64,000 bases of DNA from Flavobacterium aquidurense (GTDB lineage: Bacteria; Bacteroidota; Bacteroidia; Flavobacteriales; Flavobacteriaceae), in assembly GCF_001404985.1 (NCBI RefSeq), contig NZ_JRLF01000011.1, positions 1-64,000 on the forward strand. The letters run 5' to 3'. Positions 5,467 through 64,000 of the stretch are shown one piece after another (position 1 is the stretch's first letter; every line of letters begins with the position of its first letter). The position numbers and the translations under genes are program-made. Under the pieces are notes generated by a model. It was not told the origin of the DNA. It saw nothing but the letters and a program-made list of their open reading frames with translations, and ran no database searches.

Positions 5467-5583
5467 ATGAACTCAGAAAAAATTCTTGCCCGTGTGGTAT
5501 GGTGGCGGTATTGGAAACAACTGCAACGCTCTCTTTACAGCGTAGGACACCTAAGCTATACGGGTTTTATATCCTTAAAGTAA
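5467..5583 (+). CDS. Possible 38-residue Trp/Tyr-rich peptide overlapping an RNA element
   Basis: An ATG frame of 38 codons runs through the first cloverleaf-like element. Its product is rich in aromatic residues (ARVVWWRYWKQLQ). Its start context, AAAGTAAAGATTATGA, is almost the same as that of the next gene at 5589, which argues for translation. The second copy of the element at 5859-5931 has stop codons in this frame, so the sequence conservation is better explained by RNA structure. A leader peptide for the downstream gene is possible but unproven. Confidence 0.3.
   Translation: MNSEKILARVVWWRYWKQLQRSLYSVGHLSYTGFISLK
5489..5564 (+). ncRNA. Putative cloverleaf-like structured RNA, copy 1
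   Basis: This 76-nt element folds as a closing stem P1 (5489-5496 with 5557-5564, two G-U pairs), P2 (GGTG 5501-5504 with CACC 5548-5551), hairpin P3 (GCGGT 5505-5509 with ACTGC 5520-5524) and hairpin P4 (ACGC 5526-5529 with GCGT 5540-5543). The second copy keeps every pair despite substitutions, including a full G-C to A-T swap in P2. It is followed by TTTTATAT. It is tRNA-like in outline but has no anticodon arm or T-loop, and I cannot name a known family. Strand is assumed from the T-run and the neighbouring gene. Confidence 0.55.
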
Positions 5584-5822: not shown

Positions 5823-5858
5823 TTAAACTTTTCAACGAACATTTAAAAAAATAATTTA

Positions 5859-5931
5859 CCCGTATGGTATGATGGCGGTATTGGTAACAACCGCAACGCA
5901 CTTTGTGGCGTAGGACATCTTAACATACGGG
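5859..5931 (+). ncRNA. Putative cloverleaf-like structured RNA, copy 2
   Basis: This 73-nt copy has a perfect 8-bp P1 (CCCGTATG 5859-5866 with CATACGGG 5924-5931), P2 GATG/CATC (5871-5874 with 5916-5919), P3 GCGGT/ACCGC (5875-5879 with 5890-5894) and P4 ACGC/GCGT (5896-5899 with 5908-5911). The P4 loop differs in length and sequence from copy 1. It is followed by TTTTATAT, as in copy 1. The next gene to the right ends here on the opposite strand, so this copy is not a 5' leader of a plus-strand gene in view. Confidence 0.55.
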
Positions 5932-5995
5932 TTTTATATTTCTCCTTTTTTATGCCCGCGCGAGCATACCGCTCGTGAACGCAATCAAGATAAAA

Positions 5996-56683: not shown

Positions 56684-57502
56684 TTACCAGCCTTTTACAG
56701 CTCCGCCTTTAAATTCACGAATTGCTGCTTGTTCTACTTCTGCCGATTGAAAAGCTTGTAAAAACTGCTTTACCTTTTCTTCATTTTTATTGTCTTCACG
56801 ACTTACTACTAAGTTTACATAAGGAGAATCTTTATCCTCAACAAACAAGGCATCACGAGATGGGACTAATCCTGCCTGAGAAGCAAAAGTATTATTGATA
56901 ATTGCAATTGTTACGTTTTCATCATCAAGTGCTCGTGGCAATTGAGGTGCTTCTAATTCTAAAATTTTAAGATTTTTAGGATTACTGACAATATCTGTAA
57001 CTTTTGGCAATAAACCAATTCCTGGTTTAAGTTTCAATAAACCATTTTTCTCTAATAACAATAACGAACGTCCTCCGTTTGTTGGATCATTTGGGATAAT
57101 AACAGTGCTTTCATTTTTTAATTCTGTAAGACTCTTTATCTTTTTAGAATAAGCCGCAATTGGGTAAATAAATGTTTTCCCGATAATTGCCAATTTATAT
57201 CCGCGTTGTTTAGATTGCTCATCAAGATATGGTTTGTGCTGAAAAGCGTTTGCATCAATATCTCCCTGGCTCAAAGCTTCATTAGGAATTACATAATCGT
57301 TAAAGGAAATTAGTTCTACTTCTAATCCGTATTTTTCTTTTGCTACTTTTTTAGCCGCTTCTGCCACCTTATATTCCGGTCCGGTTGCAACTCCAACTTT
57401 TATGTGGTGCGGATCATTGTTTTTGCTTTTTCCGCAATTTGCCAATGATAATGTAAAGGCAACAATACCCGCTATTTTCAAAAAATTTAATCTAATATTC
57501 AT
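56684..57502 (-). CDS. metQ: Methionine ABC transporter substrate-binding lipoprotein MetQ
   Basis: This encodes 272 residues with a lipobox (FTLSLANCGKSK) and the NlpA/MetQ pattern: HIKVGVATGPEYKVAEAAKK, GLEVELISFNDYVIPNEALS, DIDANAFQHKPYLDEQ and IPNDPTNGGRSLLLLEKNGL. It binds methionine (often D- and L-) for the MetNI transporter. It follows metI by 36 bp. Confidence 0.93.
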   Translation of the reverse strand: MNIRLNFLKIAGIVAFTLSLANCGKSKNNDPHHIKVGVATGPEYKVAEAAKKVAKEKYGLEVELISFNDYVIPNEALSQGDIDANAFQHKPYLDEQSKQRGYKLAIIGKTFIYPIAAYSKKIKSLTELKNESTVIIPNDPTNGGRSLLLLEKNGLLKLKPGIGLLPKVTDIVSNPKNLKILELEAPQLPRALDDENVTIAIINNTFASQAGLVPSRDALFVEDKDSPYVNLVVSREDNKNEEKVKQFLQAFQSAEVEQAAIREFKGGAVKGW

Positions 57503-57538: not shown

Positions 57539-58192
57539 CTATCTATGGTCAAATCTTTTGGATAAAAAGTCACCGGTAAACTGAATTATAAATACCAAAA
57601 GTACCAGTAAAGCTAAAACCGAATTCATAGTTACGGCATCATAACCAATGTATCCGTATTGATATCCTACTTGTCCTAAACCACCAGCACCAACAGCACC
57701 ACCCATTGCAGAATATCCTACAAGTGTAATTAATGTTATAGAAGCTGCGTTTATTAAAGATGGCAAAGCTTCCGGTAGCAATACTTTGTATACGATCTGG
57801 AAAGGTGTTGCACCCAAAGCTCTTGCTGCTTCGATTAATCCTGAAGGCAATCCTAAAAGACTATTTTCTACAAGTCTGGCAATAAATGGAGCGGCACCAA
57901 TACTTAAAGGAACAAGTGCTGCACTTACACCAATAGAAGTTCCTACCAATGCACGTGTAAACGGAATCATCCAGACAATTAATATAATGAACGGAATTGA
58001 ACGAAAAATATTCACCAAAACCGATAAAGTCCTGTTTAAAACCGGTTGATCCAGAATTTGATTTTTTCGGGTAAGAAAAAGCAAAATACCGGTTGGAAGT
58101 CCCAATACAAAACCAAAAAATCCCGAAACAAATGTCATCACGATGGTTTCCCAGGTTCCTTTTAATAATAAGTCAATAATTGAATCAGACAT
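57539..58192 (-). CDS. metI: Methionine ABC transporter permease MetI
   Basis: This encodes 217 residues with five hydrophobic segments and the EAA loop [13 protein letters not shown] following [20 protein letters not shown]. It starts inside the end of metN (8-bp overlap), so the operon order is metN, metI, metQ. Confidence 0.93.
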
Positions 58193-59216
58193 AACCTATA
58201 ATTTCTGTTTTAATATGTTTAGAAATAAAATACTCAATTGCAGCTTCATAATTCTCGCGCTTTCCCGACAGTTCAATCAGCATAACGCCAAAATTTACAT
58301 CTCCGGCCTGATCCATTTGTGCACTAACAATCTTAAAGTTAGTATCAAACAATCGCGAAACTTCAGAAATAACGGGCTCATTAACAGATTTTCCAGTCAT
58401 TTCAAGTCTCAACAACGGATTTAAGCCTTCGCGATCTTCTTTTTGTAACCTTTCCTGATACACTCTTGGAATATCAAGATGAAGTGAAGACGCGATAAAT
58501 TCTTTTGTTAATTCATGTTTAGGATCGGCAAAAATTTCGCCTACACTTCCCTGTTCTATCAGTTTTCCGTGGCTGATTACAGCAACCTCATCACAAATCG
58601 ATTTCACAACTTCCATCTGGTGTGTGATCAAAAGAATCGTAATGTTCAAACGACGATTAATATCTTTTAATAAATTTAGGATAGATCTTGTAGTTGCCGG
58701 ATCAAGCGCACTTGTAGCTTCGTCGCACAACAATACTTTTGGGTTATTTGCCAATGTTCTGGCAATGGCAACTCTTTGTTTTTGACCTCCTGAAAGGCTT
58801 GCAGGATAATCATTTGCTTTTTCAGCCAAACCTACCAATTGCAGTAATTCTAAAACACGAGTCTGAATATCTCCTTTTGGAACTCCAACAAGCTCCAACG
58901 GAAAAGCCACATTCTCAAAAACTGTACGTGATGAAAGCAAATTAAAATGCTGAAAAATCATTCCTATTTGTCTTCTTTCAATCGCAAGCTGTGCATTTGA
59001 TAATTGTATCAAAGATTTTCCGTCAACGATAATTTCTCCTGAAGTTGGTCTTTCCAGCAAGTTTACACAACGAATTAAAGTACTTTTTCCAGCTCCCGAA
59101 GTTCCAATTACACCAAAGATTTTTCCAGGTGGAACTTTAAGCGAAACATCGGACAAAGCCGAAACAATTCGGTTTTTCTGATGAAAATTCTTGGTGACAT
59201 TTTTTAGTTCAATCAT
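58185..59216 (-). CDS. metN: Methionine ABC transporter ATP-binding protein MetN
   Basis: The start at 59216 ([11 protein letters not shown]) fits the family better than one 12 codons upstream. It is ~343 residues: Walker [14 protein letters not shown], signature [14 protein letters not shown], Walker [17 protein letters not shown], and a C-terminal NIL/ACT-like regulatory domain (~265-343) that in E. coli MetN binds methionine to slow transport. A leader peptide and terminator precede the gene. Confidence 0.93.
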
Positions 59217-59291
59217 TTTTTTATTCAAGTTAAGTCTGATATCTACAGACATAAATACTTAGCGGTTCTGAAATTGCCAAAATAAAATCAA

Positions 59292-59320
59292 AAAGCCTTT
59301 CATAAATATTGAAAGGCTTT
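59292..59320 (-). terminator. Putative attenuator terminator between leader peptide and metN
   Basis: On the minus strand, AAAGCCTTTC-N9-GAAAGGCTTT (10-bp perfect stem) is followed by TTGATTTTATTTT. It lies 76 bp before the metN start and 20 bp after the leader-peptide stop. The AAGCC of its first arm is complementary to GGCTT at 59353-59349 in the last codons of the leader. Confidence 0.7.
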
Positions 59321-59340
59321 AGAAATAAATAATTTTATTT

Positions 59341-59427
59341 TTATATATAAGCCAGTTTATACCATTGCATAGTTCCACAACAATTGTTGCAGCTATAATA
59401 ATTGGTATTCTGGTTATTGTTTTTCAT
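59341..59427 (-). CDS. Putative Cys-rich 28-residue leader peptide of metNIQ
   Basis: An ATG frame of 28 codons begins 9 bp after a TAAATTTG -7 box (59443-59436; TTG at 59464-59462, 18-bp spacer), so the transcript would be almost leaderless. The product includes YYSCNNCCGTMQWYKLAYI: three Cys and one internal Met. It is followed by a terminator hairpin and then metN, the layout of a translation-coupled attenuator. Cysteine shortage, or sulfur amino-acid supply generally, would be the sensed signal. No experiment or search supports this yet. Confidence 0.55.
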   Translation of the reverse strand: MKNNNQNTNYYSCNNCCGTMQWYKLAYI

Positions 59428-59435
59428 TGCTGCGG

Positions 59436-59464
59436 CAAATTTAAAGAGATAATTTGAATTTCAA
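59436..59464 (-). promoter_or_regulatory. metNIQ leader promoter
   Basis: On the minus strand, TTG (59464-59462), 18 bp, then TAAATTTG (59443-59436), a full match to the Bacteroidota -7 consensus. Confidence 0.6.
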
Positions 59465-59521
59465 TGCAAAAAATCATAAACTTTTTTTACCCTATCAATC
59501 TAATAGACTGTTTTAGGCATT

Positions 59522-59600
59522 GGAGCTGTTTCCTGCTGTCTGCTGTATCTTTACTTGCTTAAAGAAAGCAAGCAAAGGATGCCGCTCCCATCAGGGCTAT
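59522..59600. repeat. Structured intergenic element of a type I associate with Flavobacteria
   Basis: The stretch contains GGAGCTGTTTCCTGCTGTC, a central hairpin (CTTGCTT 59554-59560 with AAGCAAG 59566-59572) flanked by TCTTT/AAAGGA, and GATGCCGCTCCCATCAGGGC. From memory, sequences of this outline recur between genes in Flavobacteria. Function unknown; it could be an RNA element or an extragenic palindrome. Only one copy is in the window. Confidence 0.45.
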
Positions 59601-59684
59601 TGAACTAGTTTTTACAACAACTATTCTTTTTATAGACAAGCATTACAGATTTAAATATATTTTCGTGATAATCTTTTATAAAAA

Positions 59685-59714
59685 AAGCAAACCCTATAAT
59701 AAATAGGGTTTGCT
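59685..59714 (-). terminator. Hairpin terminator after the PorP/SprF gene
   Basis: AGCAAACCCTA pairs with TAGGGTTTGCT. On the minus strand it is followed by TTTTTTTATAAAAG. It lies ~70 bp past the stop codon. Confidence 0.8.
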
Positions 59715-59780
59715 AATTCTCAAAAAAAAACCAAAGTGTTCAATAAAAATCCCAAGTCTTTTCTATAAATAACTAAACTA

Positions 59781-60760: not shown

Positions 60761-63700
60761 TTAATCCCTGATCACGGTAATAAATCCTTTGATTTTAGGT
60801 AAATTATCTCCCAGATCAATTAGATAATAGTAAGTATCATTATTTAGCGGAGAACCACTGTAAGATCCATCCCATTCATTACTGTATGACTTTTTAGAAT
60901 ACACTATTCGACCCGCTCTGTCGTATACCGTCACAGTATTATTTGGGTACAAAACAATATCCTTAATTTCCCAGAAATCATTTTTTCCATCTCCATTTGG
61001 CGAGAGAATATTATTTGCTGTAACCTGATCCGGTGAAGCACCTTTATATACAGTAATAGTATAGGTTTGCTTTGTTACACCATCTTGAGCTGTAATTATT
61101 GTCTGAATGATATTCTCTCCTAATTTCAGCGCGATTGGCGTACTTTGAACTGAATTCGATACAGGTAATCCGTTTACAGTTATTTTAGATGCAGGATCCG
61201 TAACGGTTGGAGTAACTGTTATAGAATTTACATCATACTTAACAGCTGCACTATAATTATATACATCTGATTCGAATTCTGGATTTAATGTGCCTTCACT
61301 AATGGTTAAATCAGATAAAGAGGCCGTATCAGAACTTTCCCTTGTAACATTTAGAATGTATGTTTTGGTCGTTAAACCATCTTCTGAAGTTACTTTTATA
61401 GCTATTGTATTCAATCCTGCCAATAAAGGAACTGAAGTTATAGATCCGCCATTTGAAACTATAATTCCATTGATTGTTATTGTTGCCAAAGGATCATCAG
61501 ACGTCACTGTTATTGTCTCTGTGTCAACATTACTTCCTACAGTTACATTATATAAAAGAACATCTGGTGAGAAAGCAGGAGTTAAAACTCCGTTATTAAT
61601 AGTAAGACTTGCTAACTTAACATCGTTCGCAGATGTTACAGTCAACACTCCCGTAACATATATAATGCTGTAATTAGAATCTATCGCACCACTTGCTGTA
61701 ATAGCATAAACCCCTACTGGACTTGTTGCATTTGCAATAGTAGAAATAGTTGGCGCAGTGGATAAACTTGTAACTGTATCCCCATTTACAAAACCATTAT
61801 AACTTGCTGTTAACATAGGATTTGGCATGCCATAAGCTCTTGTTTTATTATCAGCCGTAATGGTCAAAGTTGCCTGGGTTACTGTTAAACTTCCCGCAAC
61901 ATAACTAATGATGTAATTGTTATTTACCGCTCCAATTGCCGTAATTGGGTATGTTCCCACAATGCTGGCATTATCCGCTGTTGTGGTGATTGTTGGCGGA
62001 GTCGTTAAACTCGTTGCCGTATCGCCGTTTACAAATCCCGCATAACTTGCCGTTAAAGTCGGATTTGCTGAACCATACGTTTTGGTTTGCGCATCGGCTG
62101 TAATGGTCAAAGTTGCCTGGGTTACCGTCAAACTTCCCGCAACATAACTGATGCTGTAATTGTCATTTACCGCTCCAGTTGCCGTGATTGGGTATGTTCC
62201 CACAATGCTGGCATTATCCGCGGTTGTGGTGATTGTTGGCGGAGTCGTTATACTCGCCGAAGTATCCCCGTTTACAAATCCAGCATAACTTGCAGTTAAG
62301 GTAGGATTTACCGATCCGTAAATTTTGGTTTGCGCATCGGCTGTAATGGTCAAAGTTGCCTGAGTTACTGTCAAGCTTCCCGCAACATAATTGATGATGT
62401 AATTATCATTCACCGCTCCTATTGCCATGATTGGATAGGTTCCCACAATACTGGCATTATCCGCGGTTGTGGTGATTGTTGGCGGAGTCGTTATACTCGC
62501 CGAAGTATCCCCATTTACAAATCCCGCATAACTTGCCGTTAAAGTCGGATTTGCTGAACCGTACGTTTTGGTTTGCGCATCGGCTGTAATGGTTAAAGTT
62601 GCCTGGGTTACCGTCAAACTTCCCGCAACATAACTGATGCTGTAATTGTCATTTACCGCTCCTGTTGCCGTGATTGGGTATGTTCCCACAATGCTGGTAT
62701 TATCCGCTGTTGTGGTAATTGTTGGAGGAGTTGATAAACTTGCCGAAGTATCGCCGTTTACAAATCCTGCATAACTTGCCGTTAAAGTCGGGTTTGCTGA
62801 TCCGTAGATTTTGGTTTGCACATCAGCCGTAATGGTCAAAGTTGCCTGAGTTACTGTCAAACTTCCTGCAACATAATTGATGATGTAATTATCATTCACC
62901 GCTCCTGTTGCCGTGATTGGATAGCTTCCCACAATACTGGCATTATCAGCTGTTGTGGTAATAGTTGGCAGAGTCGTTAAACTTGCCGAAGTATCACCAT
63001 TTACAAATCCTGTATAACTTGCTGTTAAGATAGGATTCGCTGAACCGTAAGTTTTGGTTTGCGCATCTGCCGTGATGATCAAAGTTGCCTGTGTTACTGT
63101 CAAACTTCCTGCAACATAACTGATGATGTAATTGTCATTCACCGCTCCGATAGCCGTGATTGGATAACTTCCAACAATACTTGCATTATCTGCAGTTGTG
63201 GTAATAGTTGGCAGAGTCGTTAAACTTGCCGAAGTATCGCCGTTTACAAATCCTGCATAACTTGCCGTTAAGGTAGGGTTTGCTGATCCGTAAGTTTTGG
63301 TTTGCACATCGGCAGTGATGGTCAAAGTTGACTGGGTTACTGTCAAACTTCCCGCAACATAACTGATGATATAATTGTCATTTACCGCTCCAGTTGCCGT
63401 GATTGGATAGGTTCCCACAATGCTGGCATTATCCGCGGTTGTGGTGATTGTTGGCGGAGTCGTTAAACTCGCTGCTGTATCGCCGTTTACAAATCCCCCA
63501 TAACTTCCCGTTAAAGTTGGGTTTGCTGATCCGTAAGTTTTGGTTTGTGCATCTGCCGTGATGGTCAAAGTTGCTGGATTAACAGTTAAAGTCCCATCAG
63601 TATATTCAATCGTATAATTTGCACTAACTGCACCACTTGCCGTTACGGGATACGTTCCAACTGGACTACTTTGAACAGCTGTCGTGGTAATTGTTGGCAA

Positions 63701-64000
63701 GGTTGTTAAACTGGTCTCTGTATCGCCGTTCACAAAACCAACATAACTAACTGTCAAAGCAGGATTTATATCTCCGTATATTTTATTTTGATTATTTGCA
63801 ACAATCGTCAATAAAGTTGTAGCAGTTACAGTTAATGTTCCATCAATATGATTAATTATATAATTAGAATCTGTTGTTCCACTTACTGTAATTGGATATG
63901 TTCCAACAGAACTTGCCGCGGTAGCCGATGTGCTAATCGTTGTTTGCGTGGTTAAACTTGACACTGTATCTCCGTTTACAAATCCTGCATAACTTGCCGT
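60761..64000 (-). CDS. Giant T9SS type B surface protein with MBG repeats (N-terminus beyond right edge)
   Basis: The frame is open from 60761 to the right edge, so at least 1,080 C-terminal residues are visible. Nine MBG-type domains of ~81 residues stand in tandem (LTITADAQTKTYGSANPTLT, ASYAGFVNGDT). Two cadherin-like beta-sandwich domains follow (LASLTINNGVLTPAFSPDV; LSDLTISEGTLNPEFESDV). The end is a gliding-motility-type sorting domain (NILSPNGDGKNDFWEI; VYDRAGRIVYSKKSYSNEWD). This is the type B T9SS signal, usually paired with a PorP/SprF protein, which is encoded next. It probably acts as an adhesin. Confidence 0.92.
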   Translation of the reverse strand, partial: TASYAGFVNGDTVSSLTTQTTISTSATAASSVGTYPITVSGTTDSNYIINHIDGTLTVTATTLLTIVANNQNKIYGDINPALTVSYVGFVNGDTETSLTTLPTITTTAVQSSPVGTYPVTASGAVSANYTIEYTDGTLTVNPATLTITADAQTKTYGSANPTLTGSYGGFVNGDTAASLTTPPTITTTADNASIVGTYPITATGAVNDNYIISYVAGSLTVTQSTLTITADVQTKTYGSANPTLTASYAGFVNGDTSASLTTLPTITTTADNASIVGSYPITAIGAVNDNYIISYVAGSLTVTQATLIITADAQTKTYGSANPILTASYTGFVNGDTSASLTTLPTITTTADNASIVGSYPITATGAVNDNYIINYVAGSLTVTQATLTITADVQTKIYGSANPTLTASYAGFVNGDTSASLSTPPTITTTADNTSIVGTYPITATGAVNDNYSISYVAGSLTVTQATLTITADAQTKTYGSANPTLTASYAGFVNGDTSASITTPPTITTTADNASIVGTYPIMAIGAVNDNYIINYVAGSLTVTQATLTITADAQTKIYGSVNPTLTASYAGFVNGDTSASITTPPTITTTADNASIVGTYPITATGAVNDNYSISYVAGSLTVTQATLTITADAQTKTYGSANPTLTASYAGFVNGDTATSLTTPPTITTTADNASIVGTYPITAIGAVNNNYIISYVAGSLTVTQATLTITADNKTRAYGMPNPMLTASYNGFVNGDTVTSLSTAPTISTIANATSPVGVYAITASGAIDSNYSIIYVTGVLTVTSANDVKLASLTINNGVLTPAFSPDVLLYNVTVGSNVDTETITVTSDDPLATITINGIIVSNGGSITSVPLLAGLNTIAIKVTSEDGLTTKTYILNVTRESSDTASLSDLTISEGTLNPEFESDVYNYSAAVKYDVNSITVTPTVTDPASKITVNGLPVSNSVQSTPIALKLGENIIQTIITAQDGVTKQTYTITVYKGASPDQVTANNILSPNGDGKNDFWEIKDIVLYPNNTVTVYDRAGRIVYSKKSYSNEWDGSYSGSPLNNDTYYYLIDLGDNLPKIKGFITVIRD
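61850..63570. repeat. Tandem 243-bp coding repeats (MBG domains)
   Basis: About seven units of 243 bp (81 codons) are nearly identical at the DNA level, for example ACTCGCCGAAGTATCCCCGT near 62250 and, with one change, near 62495. Flanking units at each end are more diverged. High identity implies recent unequal recombination or gene conversion. Confidence 0.9.

Follow-up and report, generated by a model that had tools for sequence, protein, structure and literature searches.

A probable ribosome-mediated transcription attenuator with methionine and cysteine codons ahead of the metNIQ operon of Flavobacterium

The stretch of DNA analyzed here (the window) comprises 64,000 nucleotides of Flavobacterium aquidurense (assembly GCF_001404985.1, contig NZ_JRLF01000011.1, positions 1 to 64,000 of the forward strand), and its minus strand codes for a methionine ABC transporter in the order metN-metI-metQ. 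All three genes exceed the curated NCBIfam cut-offs: metN (58185..59216), the ATPase, which includes a NIL domain (TIGR02314, 545.6 bits, cut-off 499.7), metI (57539..58192), the permease (NF008049, 380.9 bits, cut-off 212), and metQ (56684..57502), the substrate-binding lipoprotein (NF008285, 430 bits, cut-off 374). The start of metN is most likely at 59216, although the listed ORF opens at 59252.

Upstream of metN, the minus strand of 59216-59464 carries all the features that a previous sequence-only reading of this DNA had described. A near-leaderless ORF of 28 codons (59341..59427; MKNNNQNTNYYSCNNCCGTMQWYKLAYI, then a stop codon at 59343-59341) codes for a peptide with three Cys, in the arrangement SCNNCC, and one internal Met. 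It is preceded by a putative promoter (59436..59464), which we take to be of the Bacteroidota type, whose TAAATTTG box (59443-59436) lies 8 nt ahead of the leader ATG and whose TTG (59464-59462) lies another 18 nt upstream. An intrinsic terminator hairpin with a T-rich tail (59292..59320; segments 3 and 4) begins 20 nt past the stop codon, before metN; position and tail are as previously described, but we count 11 pairs, closing a loop of 7, and not 10. A consensus scan of 59180-59760 gave two terminator-like sites, against a mean of 0.3 in shuffled sequences. The last leader codons contain CTGGCTT (59349..59355; segment 2), a candidate antiterminator strand proposed from the conservation of GGCT and from ribosome-cover geometry, and its GGCTT (59353-59349) is indeed complementary to AAGCC (59319-59315) in the first arm of the terminator. 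Two further elements emerge from the comparisons described below, namely the putative control codons C13 N N C16 C17 G T M20 (59368..59391), where most relatives have MMCC...M, and CCAG in codons 5-6 (59410..59413; segment 1), a candidate protector strand whose partner would be the CTGG of segment 2.

Taken by itself, the leader peptide of the window is only mildly unusual: at least four non-start Met and Cys codons occur in 1.1% of shuffled ORFs, and at least three Cys in 0.8%. A search of other genomes with its 28 residues returned one good relative (L003) and otherwise weak matches. For this reason, the MetN protein, not the leader, served as the query against 398 genomes of Flavobacterium. 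A close MetN (E<=1e-100) is present in 75 of these genomes, and 74 of the loci are testable because their upstream region is kept, the remaining one (L201) ending at a contig edge. With a leader finder that required one Cys, 12-45 codons and a gap of up to 22 nt between box and ATG, 62 of the 74 testable metN loci yielded a leader ORF that comes right behind a TAnnTTTG box and ahead of a terminator. The gap from TA..TTTG to ATG is 8 nt in every one of the 62 leaders, which represent 61 distinct sequences; F. araucananum DSM 24704, F. hercynium DSM 18292 and F. pectinovorum DSM 6368 (L032-L034) are among the species that carry it. The leader is absent from the other 12 loci, where MetN is 55-75% identical to that of the window, against at least 88% in the 62 leader-bearing loci. 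The conservation of leader ORF and hairpin among relatives, which the sequence-only reading had put forward as a check, is therefore borne out in this genus, and it is this conservation across genomes, more than the composition of a single peptide, that excludes chance.

A family-wide search with MetN in 249 genomes of 235 genera gave only the window's own protein at E<=1e-110. A profile of the Flavobacterium leaders gave 60 matches at E<=0.05 in 249 genomes, of which the 36 at E<=2.9e-6 all coincide with metN leaders. The 24 weaker matches (E 0.004-0.05) were checked for the presence of a TA..TTTG box and a short ORF as well as for Met/Cys content, and one passed, an orphan leader in genome G004 (L342, G004:C20:9150-9700, minus strand; L366); the hairpin test of this screen missed the long-loop terminator of G004 and so says nothing against hairpins at the other 23 places. 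The orphan (MRNKSQNTIPYDCNTIMCYMYDLLYEQAFYGLVS) lies away from metN and has a promoter box, an operator-like ATTCTATAGAAT upstream and a AAGCCTTTT...AAAAGGCTTTTT hairpin downstream. In the 5.1 kb read at this place, none of the ORFs looked like a met gene, the next ORF downstream presumably codes for a glutamate-type dehydrogenase, and G004's own metN (L192), 75% identical, is without leader. In the simplest reading, the orphan is perhaps a remnant of a lost metN locus; perhaps it is instead a free-standing RNA. Such a unit away from metN would also suit a functional small protein, for example a Cys/Met metal-binding peptide with the hairpin as its own terminator, and so would the fact that a short ORF with a conserved Met/Cys cluster comes with a promoter and a terminator of its own. 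We regard a small protein as very improbable, however, since the C-terminal part of the peptide is dispensable (the Flavobacterium ORFs range from 22 to 32 codons while GGCT stays), the leader peptide has no Pfam or NCBIfam match, and the strong profile matches all sit at metN.

The aligned Flavobacterium leaders follow the pattern MKNxNQNM.NYY...MMCC..VM...DLA.I, with the core ..YY..MMCCxxVM... Among the 61 distinct leaders, the conserved columns hold Met in 57, Cys in 59, Cys in 55 and the late Met in 55, and the motifs MM, M-C and CC occur in 46, 56 and 53, respectively. The codon for the first motif Cys varies synonymously (TGC in 41, TGT in 18), and Met and Cys account for 21% of non-start residues, against 5% in letter-shuffled ORFs. 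Most other columns are variable, the conserved ones being Gln6 (55 of 61, within segment 1), Tyr12 (54 of 61) and the LA of segment 2. The window's leader and its close relatives L127, L128, L129 and L131 lack the Met before the Cys, and SCNNCC is thus a derived form, belonging to a small clade in which the Met pair was lost. An alignment across relatives had been suggested to look for a conserved hairpin and SCxxCC peptide with synonymous codon change: the hairpin and the Cys, with their TGC/TGT exchanges, are conserved, whereas the SCxxCC form itself belongs to this small clade.

The Met and Cys columns fit the regulated pathway, the operon being metNIQ, and they support Met plus Cys as the putative control codons, with the window's species leaning to Cys; these would also be the amino acids sensed. 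The leader had previously been proposed as a Cys-responsive attenuator, and of this the attenuator is retained but Cys as the sole signal is not, since the Met columns are as conserved as those of Cys. The same attenuator keyed to cysteine alone, with incidental Met codons, would agree with the window's own leader, which has three Cys and a single late Met in a clade that lost the Met pair, and with the presence of at least one Cys in every leader read, though the Flavobacterium finder required one. Given the Met columns in this genus (57 and 55 of 61, against 59 and 55 for Cys), and given that the operon codes for a methionine importer, we consider a response to cysteine alone unlikely, and the leaders of a second genus, presented below, argue in the same direction.

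GGCT is kept in all 62 Flavobacterium leaders. In 52 of them it is part of the final codons and takes one of two registers with respect to the stop; in the other 10 it falls outside the ORF, its start being 6-10 nt beyond the first stop-codon base. Since it is kept also in these 10 loci, whose ORF ends before it, GGCT would act as RNA and not as coding sequence. The GCCTTTC of the terminator begins 21-43 nt past the stop, and GGC:GCC is part of the minimum-energy fold of 62/62 leaders when the second terminator arm is left out, so the complementarity first noticed in the window is upheld across the genus. In the alignment, 99.3% of terminator cells are paired, with A-U to G-C changes and 4 cells changed on both sides, a number that 0 of 500 shuffles reach. 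Covariation cannot test the antiterminator, GGCTT:AAGCC, because it has only 5 bp and is nearly invariant (98.0% of cells paired), and its own partners pair no better than permuted ones (-7.22 vs -7.31). The mean duplex energy is -14.65 kcal/mol for the terminator and -7.22 kcal/mol for the antiterminator; with a terminator so much more stable, the switch must be kinetic, acting before the second arm is made. We rejected the AU-rich spacer as an extension of the antiterminator, as it adds no significant pairing (median z 0.19).

We tentatively propose a further pairing, absent from the sequence-only reading, in which CCAG of codons 5-6 may act as a protector by binding CTGG. Of its cells, 82.8% are paired, a value that 12 of 500 shuffles attain and that falls to 64.5% or less once the helix is slid; two pairs have double changes, matched by 19 of 500 shuffles. 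With permuted partners, the mean duplex is weaker, at -6.65 instead of -6.85, and 1 of 300 permutations is as low. RNAalifold, applied to the leader from ATG to segment 2, gave no consensus structure and did not recover CCAG:CTGG.

A terminator ahead of a methionine transporter gene is also the layout of SAM riboswitch and T-box switches. Another RNA switch of this kind, or a plain terminator next to an ORF that arose by chance, would therefore look similar in outline. At the gathering score, no Rfam family, T-box and SAM riboswitch included, was found on the window leader; at E<=1, a search of two related loci gave two chance-level matches to unrelated families, both in L154 and none in L230. 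The frame and codons of the ORF are, moreover, conserved in two genera, and we give such a switch hardly any weight.

We then modelled the leader with a ribosome on it, counting 15 nt from the first base of the P-site codon to the front edge of the ribosome and folding the downstream RNA up to the end of the first terminator arm. For a ribosome stalled with the second Cys in the A site (or, where CC is missing, as in 8 of 62 leaders, the codon that follows the last Cys), GGCT lies 9-18 nt ahead of the ribosome (median 17), and the predicted pairing probability of segments 2:3 averages 0.93 over the 62 leaders, with a range of 0 to 1, a leader in which the first base of GGCT is covered being scored as zero by construction. 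A stall with the late Met in the A site gives a mean of 0.94 (57 leaders). When the ribosome has reached the stop codon, GGCT lies entirely beneath it in 58 of 62 leaders; of the other four, one has three bases covered and three have two, so that at least half of GGCT is covered in 62/62. With no ribosome, the antiterminator pairing in Flavobacterium is predicted at 0.27 on average, while GGCT pairs upstream at 0.51. In these models, the folding with and without ribosome is that of a classical attenuator, and the earlier suggestion that a ribosome stalled at the Cys codons would free GGCTT, and one at the stop would cover it, agrees with both folding and geometry in silico.

An analogous leader exists outside Flavobacterium. 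With one leader as query, a similarity search at E<=0.05 matched 96 of 118 genomes in the genus of Chryseobacterium taiwanense (L080), and the leaders of 72 of these were read. Their consensus, MKxxFKNNSxxKHxINxMMMYCCMPxxxxxCG, is unlike the Flavobacterium sequence. Of 71 distinct leaders, 70 contain MM, 68 contain CM and 42 contain CC, with the limit that the parser for 38 of these demanded MM or CM (it was applied to the later 40 leaders, of which L269 and L295 were unparsed and left out); this predominance of MM over CC speaks against cysteine as the sole signal. A profile of these leaders, run against 346 genomes of the order, matched 33 genomes at E<=1e-8, all under one genus label. Six places with weak matches in the second genus or the order were inspected: L341 is a true low-scoring leader, and the other five showed no leader with terminator by eye, a short MMKYC peptide being present in L336.

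The end of the ORF in this second genus (GTGGTTGACCTT) is complementary to the first arm of the terminator (AAGGCTTTACCAC), so that the architecture and the pairing between leader end and terminator recur with other letters. The resulting 12-pair antiterminator is paired in 89.2% of cells, against 37-53% when slid (63 distinct sequences), a percentage not above that of shuffles (109/500). Four of its pairs are changed on both sides, which 0 of 500 shuffles show; these represent only 4 cells in three leaders (GUGG:CCAC, AUGG:CCAU and GGAG:CUCC are examples), and the helix slid by +1 also has 4 such pairs. Own partners pair better than permuted ones in 500/500 trials, in controls that ignore relatedness. 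In the terminator, 99.7% of cells are paired and both sides have changed in 17 of them, a count that 0/500 shuffles reach. When the ribosome is placed at the stop codon, no antiterminator pairing is left in 34/34 leaders, and when it is placed at the last Cys the predicted pairing averages 0.73 (0.36-0.80). The unoccupied leader already favours the antiterminator (0.63), and a protector is for this reason not evident in this genus.

Alignment of 29 leaders from the second genus shows no variation at two Met positions or at the Pro that follows CM, and this Pro may help the ribosome to stall. This degree of constraint goes beyond what control codons need, and would be in line with nascent-peptide arrest, in which MMMYCCMP stalls in the exit tunnel on a small molecule (Met or SAM) and drives the same RNA switch. 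Flavobacterium leaders are without such a Pro, however, and outside Met and Cys their columns mostly vary, Gln6, Tyr12 and the LA of segment 2 excepted; arrest on excess would also have the wrong sign for an importer. We therefore find nascent-peptide arrest distinctly improbable. In a part of the second genus (L078, L234 and others), the attenuator would control an additional gene, as an EamA-like gene lies between leader and metN: by a text-heuristic tag, it is seemingly next after the leader in 10 of 34 loci, and in L078 the gene at 1442-2485 is EamA by Pfam and is followed by the metN, metI and metQ ORFs.

Upstream of the window's promoter lies an imperfect 7-7-7 palindrome, AGTCTAT-N7-ATAGGGT (59489..59509, minus strand), which we regard as a candidate operator. 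Its consensus across both genera is AGTCTAY-N7-RTAGACT. For 61 of 62 Flavobacterium leaders, the best-matching site is 70-73 nt ahead of the ATG and has 1-5 mismatches, whereas the reversed pattern, used as a control, has 5-6 mismatches in 56 of 62; in the second genus, 34/34 loci match with 0-2 mismatches. Among the 12 leaderless loci, 10 have a match (at most 3 mismatches, counted with no control) within 400 nt, one of which, L193, has a different sequence. Counted over the whole genome at 3 mismatches, the palindrome is below its control (382 vs 745), and the operator is accordingly proposed from position and conservation. The conserved palindrome suggests a second, protein-mediated layer of control, as a candidate site for a sulfur regulator.

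Other features of the window are recorded here for completeness. Just upstream of the candidate operator is a Flavo-1 RNA (RF01705, 69.9 bits; 59525-59602, minus strand). No Flavo-1 was seen by eye in the 400 nt of the F. hercynium and F. pectinovorum loci (L033, L034), and it is for this reason probably unrelated to the attenuator. About 84 nt further upstream there is a second strong terminator-like hairpin of 12 pairs (59686-59714, minus strand). Two c4-2 RNAs (RF02944) lie close together on the plus strand (5488-5567 and 5858-5934). A long ORF of 1067 aa (60761-63964, minus strand) consists of highly similar tandem repeats (YGSANPTLTASYAGFVNGDT...), and its C-terminal end is, we presume, a gliding/secretion-type C-terminal domain.

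The locus brings together a short ORF conserved in frame, control codons that match the pathway, a terminator, an antiterminator that excludes it, and masking and freeing of that antiterminator in silico. In our view, it is likely that a classical ribosome-mediated transcription attenuator controls metNIQ by reading the supply of charged Met-tRNA and Cys-tRNA, and the comparison among genomes lends strong support to the attenuator. RNA polymerase would start just ahead of the leader ATG, with a ribosome trailing it. When Met and Cys are ample, the ribosome would reach the stop codon and cover CTGGCTT, the downstream hairpin would form, and transcription would stop before metN. When either is short, the ribosome would stall at MMCC...M (C-NN-CC...M in the window genome), short of GGCT, and GGCTT could then pair with AAGCC, block the terminator and allow the transporter to be made. 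The peptide, its spacing and the hairpin are conserved, and in silico the two pairings exclude each other and the masking geometry fits; we infer that the leader ORF is translated, that transcription terminates at the hairpin in vivo and that Met and Cys are the amino acids to which it responds.

One point against this mechanism is that Met shortage would slow initiation of the leader too. It raises the question of how a Met-short cell could initiate the leader and yet stall at its internal Met codons. Whether Flavobacterium and the genus of C. taiwanense, with unrelated leader sequences, both possess a sensor of sulfur supply that reads two amino acids, Met with Cys, while still being fMet-initiated, is a proposition on which we are evenly divided. 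If the attenuator operates as proposed, methionine would join the amino acids read by leader-peptide attenuation, transcription and translation would have to be coupled in Bacteroidota tightly enough for attenuation, and an MM..C sensor could gradually become one for Cys alone, as the window's clade would illustrate. The leader would then offer a compact and genetically tractable test of this coupling in Bacteroidota, and the natural series MMM, MM, IM and NN before CC would be a way to measure the effect of control codons on the response.

Several known systems resemble the metNIQ leader in part. Canestrari and colleagues are said to have described, in 2020, Cys-rich leader ORFs of mycobacterial cys operons. 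T-box and riboswitch RNAs read tRNA or ligand directly and have no leader peptide, unlike the metNIQ leader, and in Lactococcus lactis a riboswitch reportedly acts on a methionine transporter. One comparative study predicts trp attenuators in Corynebacterium and Streptomyces as well as Cys-rich leader ORFs without terminators in Actinobacteria (mycobacterial cys operons), and gives no conserved RNA structure upstream of actinobacterial methionine operons (PMC1262725). The mycobacterial ORFs and the metNIQ leader are alike in being short, (near-)leaderless, rich in Cys codons and upstream of sulfur genes. However, the mycobacterial ORFs have their Cys runs near the stop and no conserved terminator hairpin (PMC1262725), whereas the metNIQ leader has a conserved terminator and antiterminator and places its Cys mid-ORF together with Met, which sets it outside the mycobacterial type.

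For the Firmicutes, a second study reports that in Lactobacillus sakei a methionine transporter is preceded by a T-box, and notes that, at the time, Proteobacteria and Actinobacteria were the only groups with known leader-peptide systems, to which it adds the Firmicutes (PMC2965389). The Firmicutes switches share with the metNIQ leader control at the RNA level ahead of a methionine transporter. The His leader peptides of hisS/hisZ in Bacilli (PMC2965389) likewise extend attenuators beyond Proteobacteria and Actinobacteria, with another amino acid, phylum and gene. In Bacteroides, short ORFs in 5' UTRs that are reminiscent of leader peptides, and unvalidated, are mentioned in a third source (PMC7366714). 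Among the matches listed from the open-access literature, there was no attenuator with Met codons and none in Flavobacteriia; Lopatovskaya et al. (2010) might cover Bacteroidota. As the literature compared is mostly open-access, we provisionally regard the Met control codons and the Bacteroidota case as new, the mechanism of attenuation being already known.

The closest parallel is that of the trp/his-type ribosome-mediated attenuators, which occur in Proteobacteria. These share with the metNIQ leader an ORF with cognate codons, a terminator, an alternative antiterminator and masking at the stop codon. The metNIQ leader differs from them in that Met and Cys are used together, in its occurrence in Bacteroidota, in its near-leaderless ORF, in an antiterminator of 5 bp (in Flavobacterium), and in having an importer as its target.
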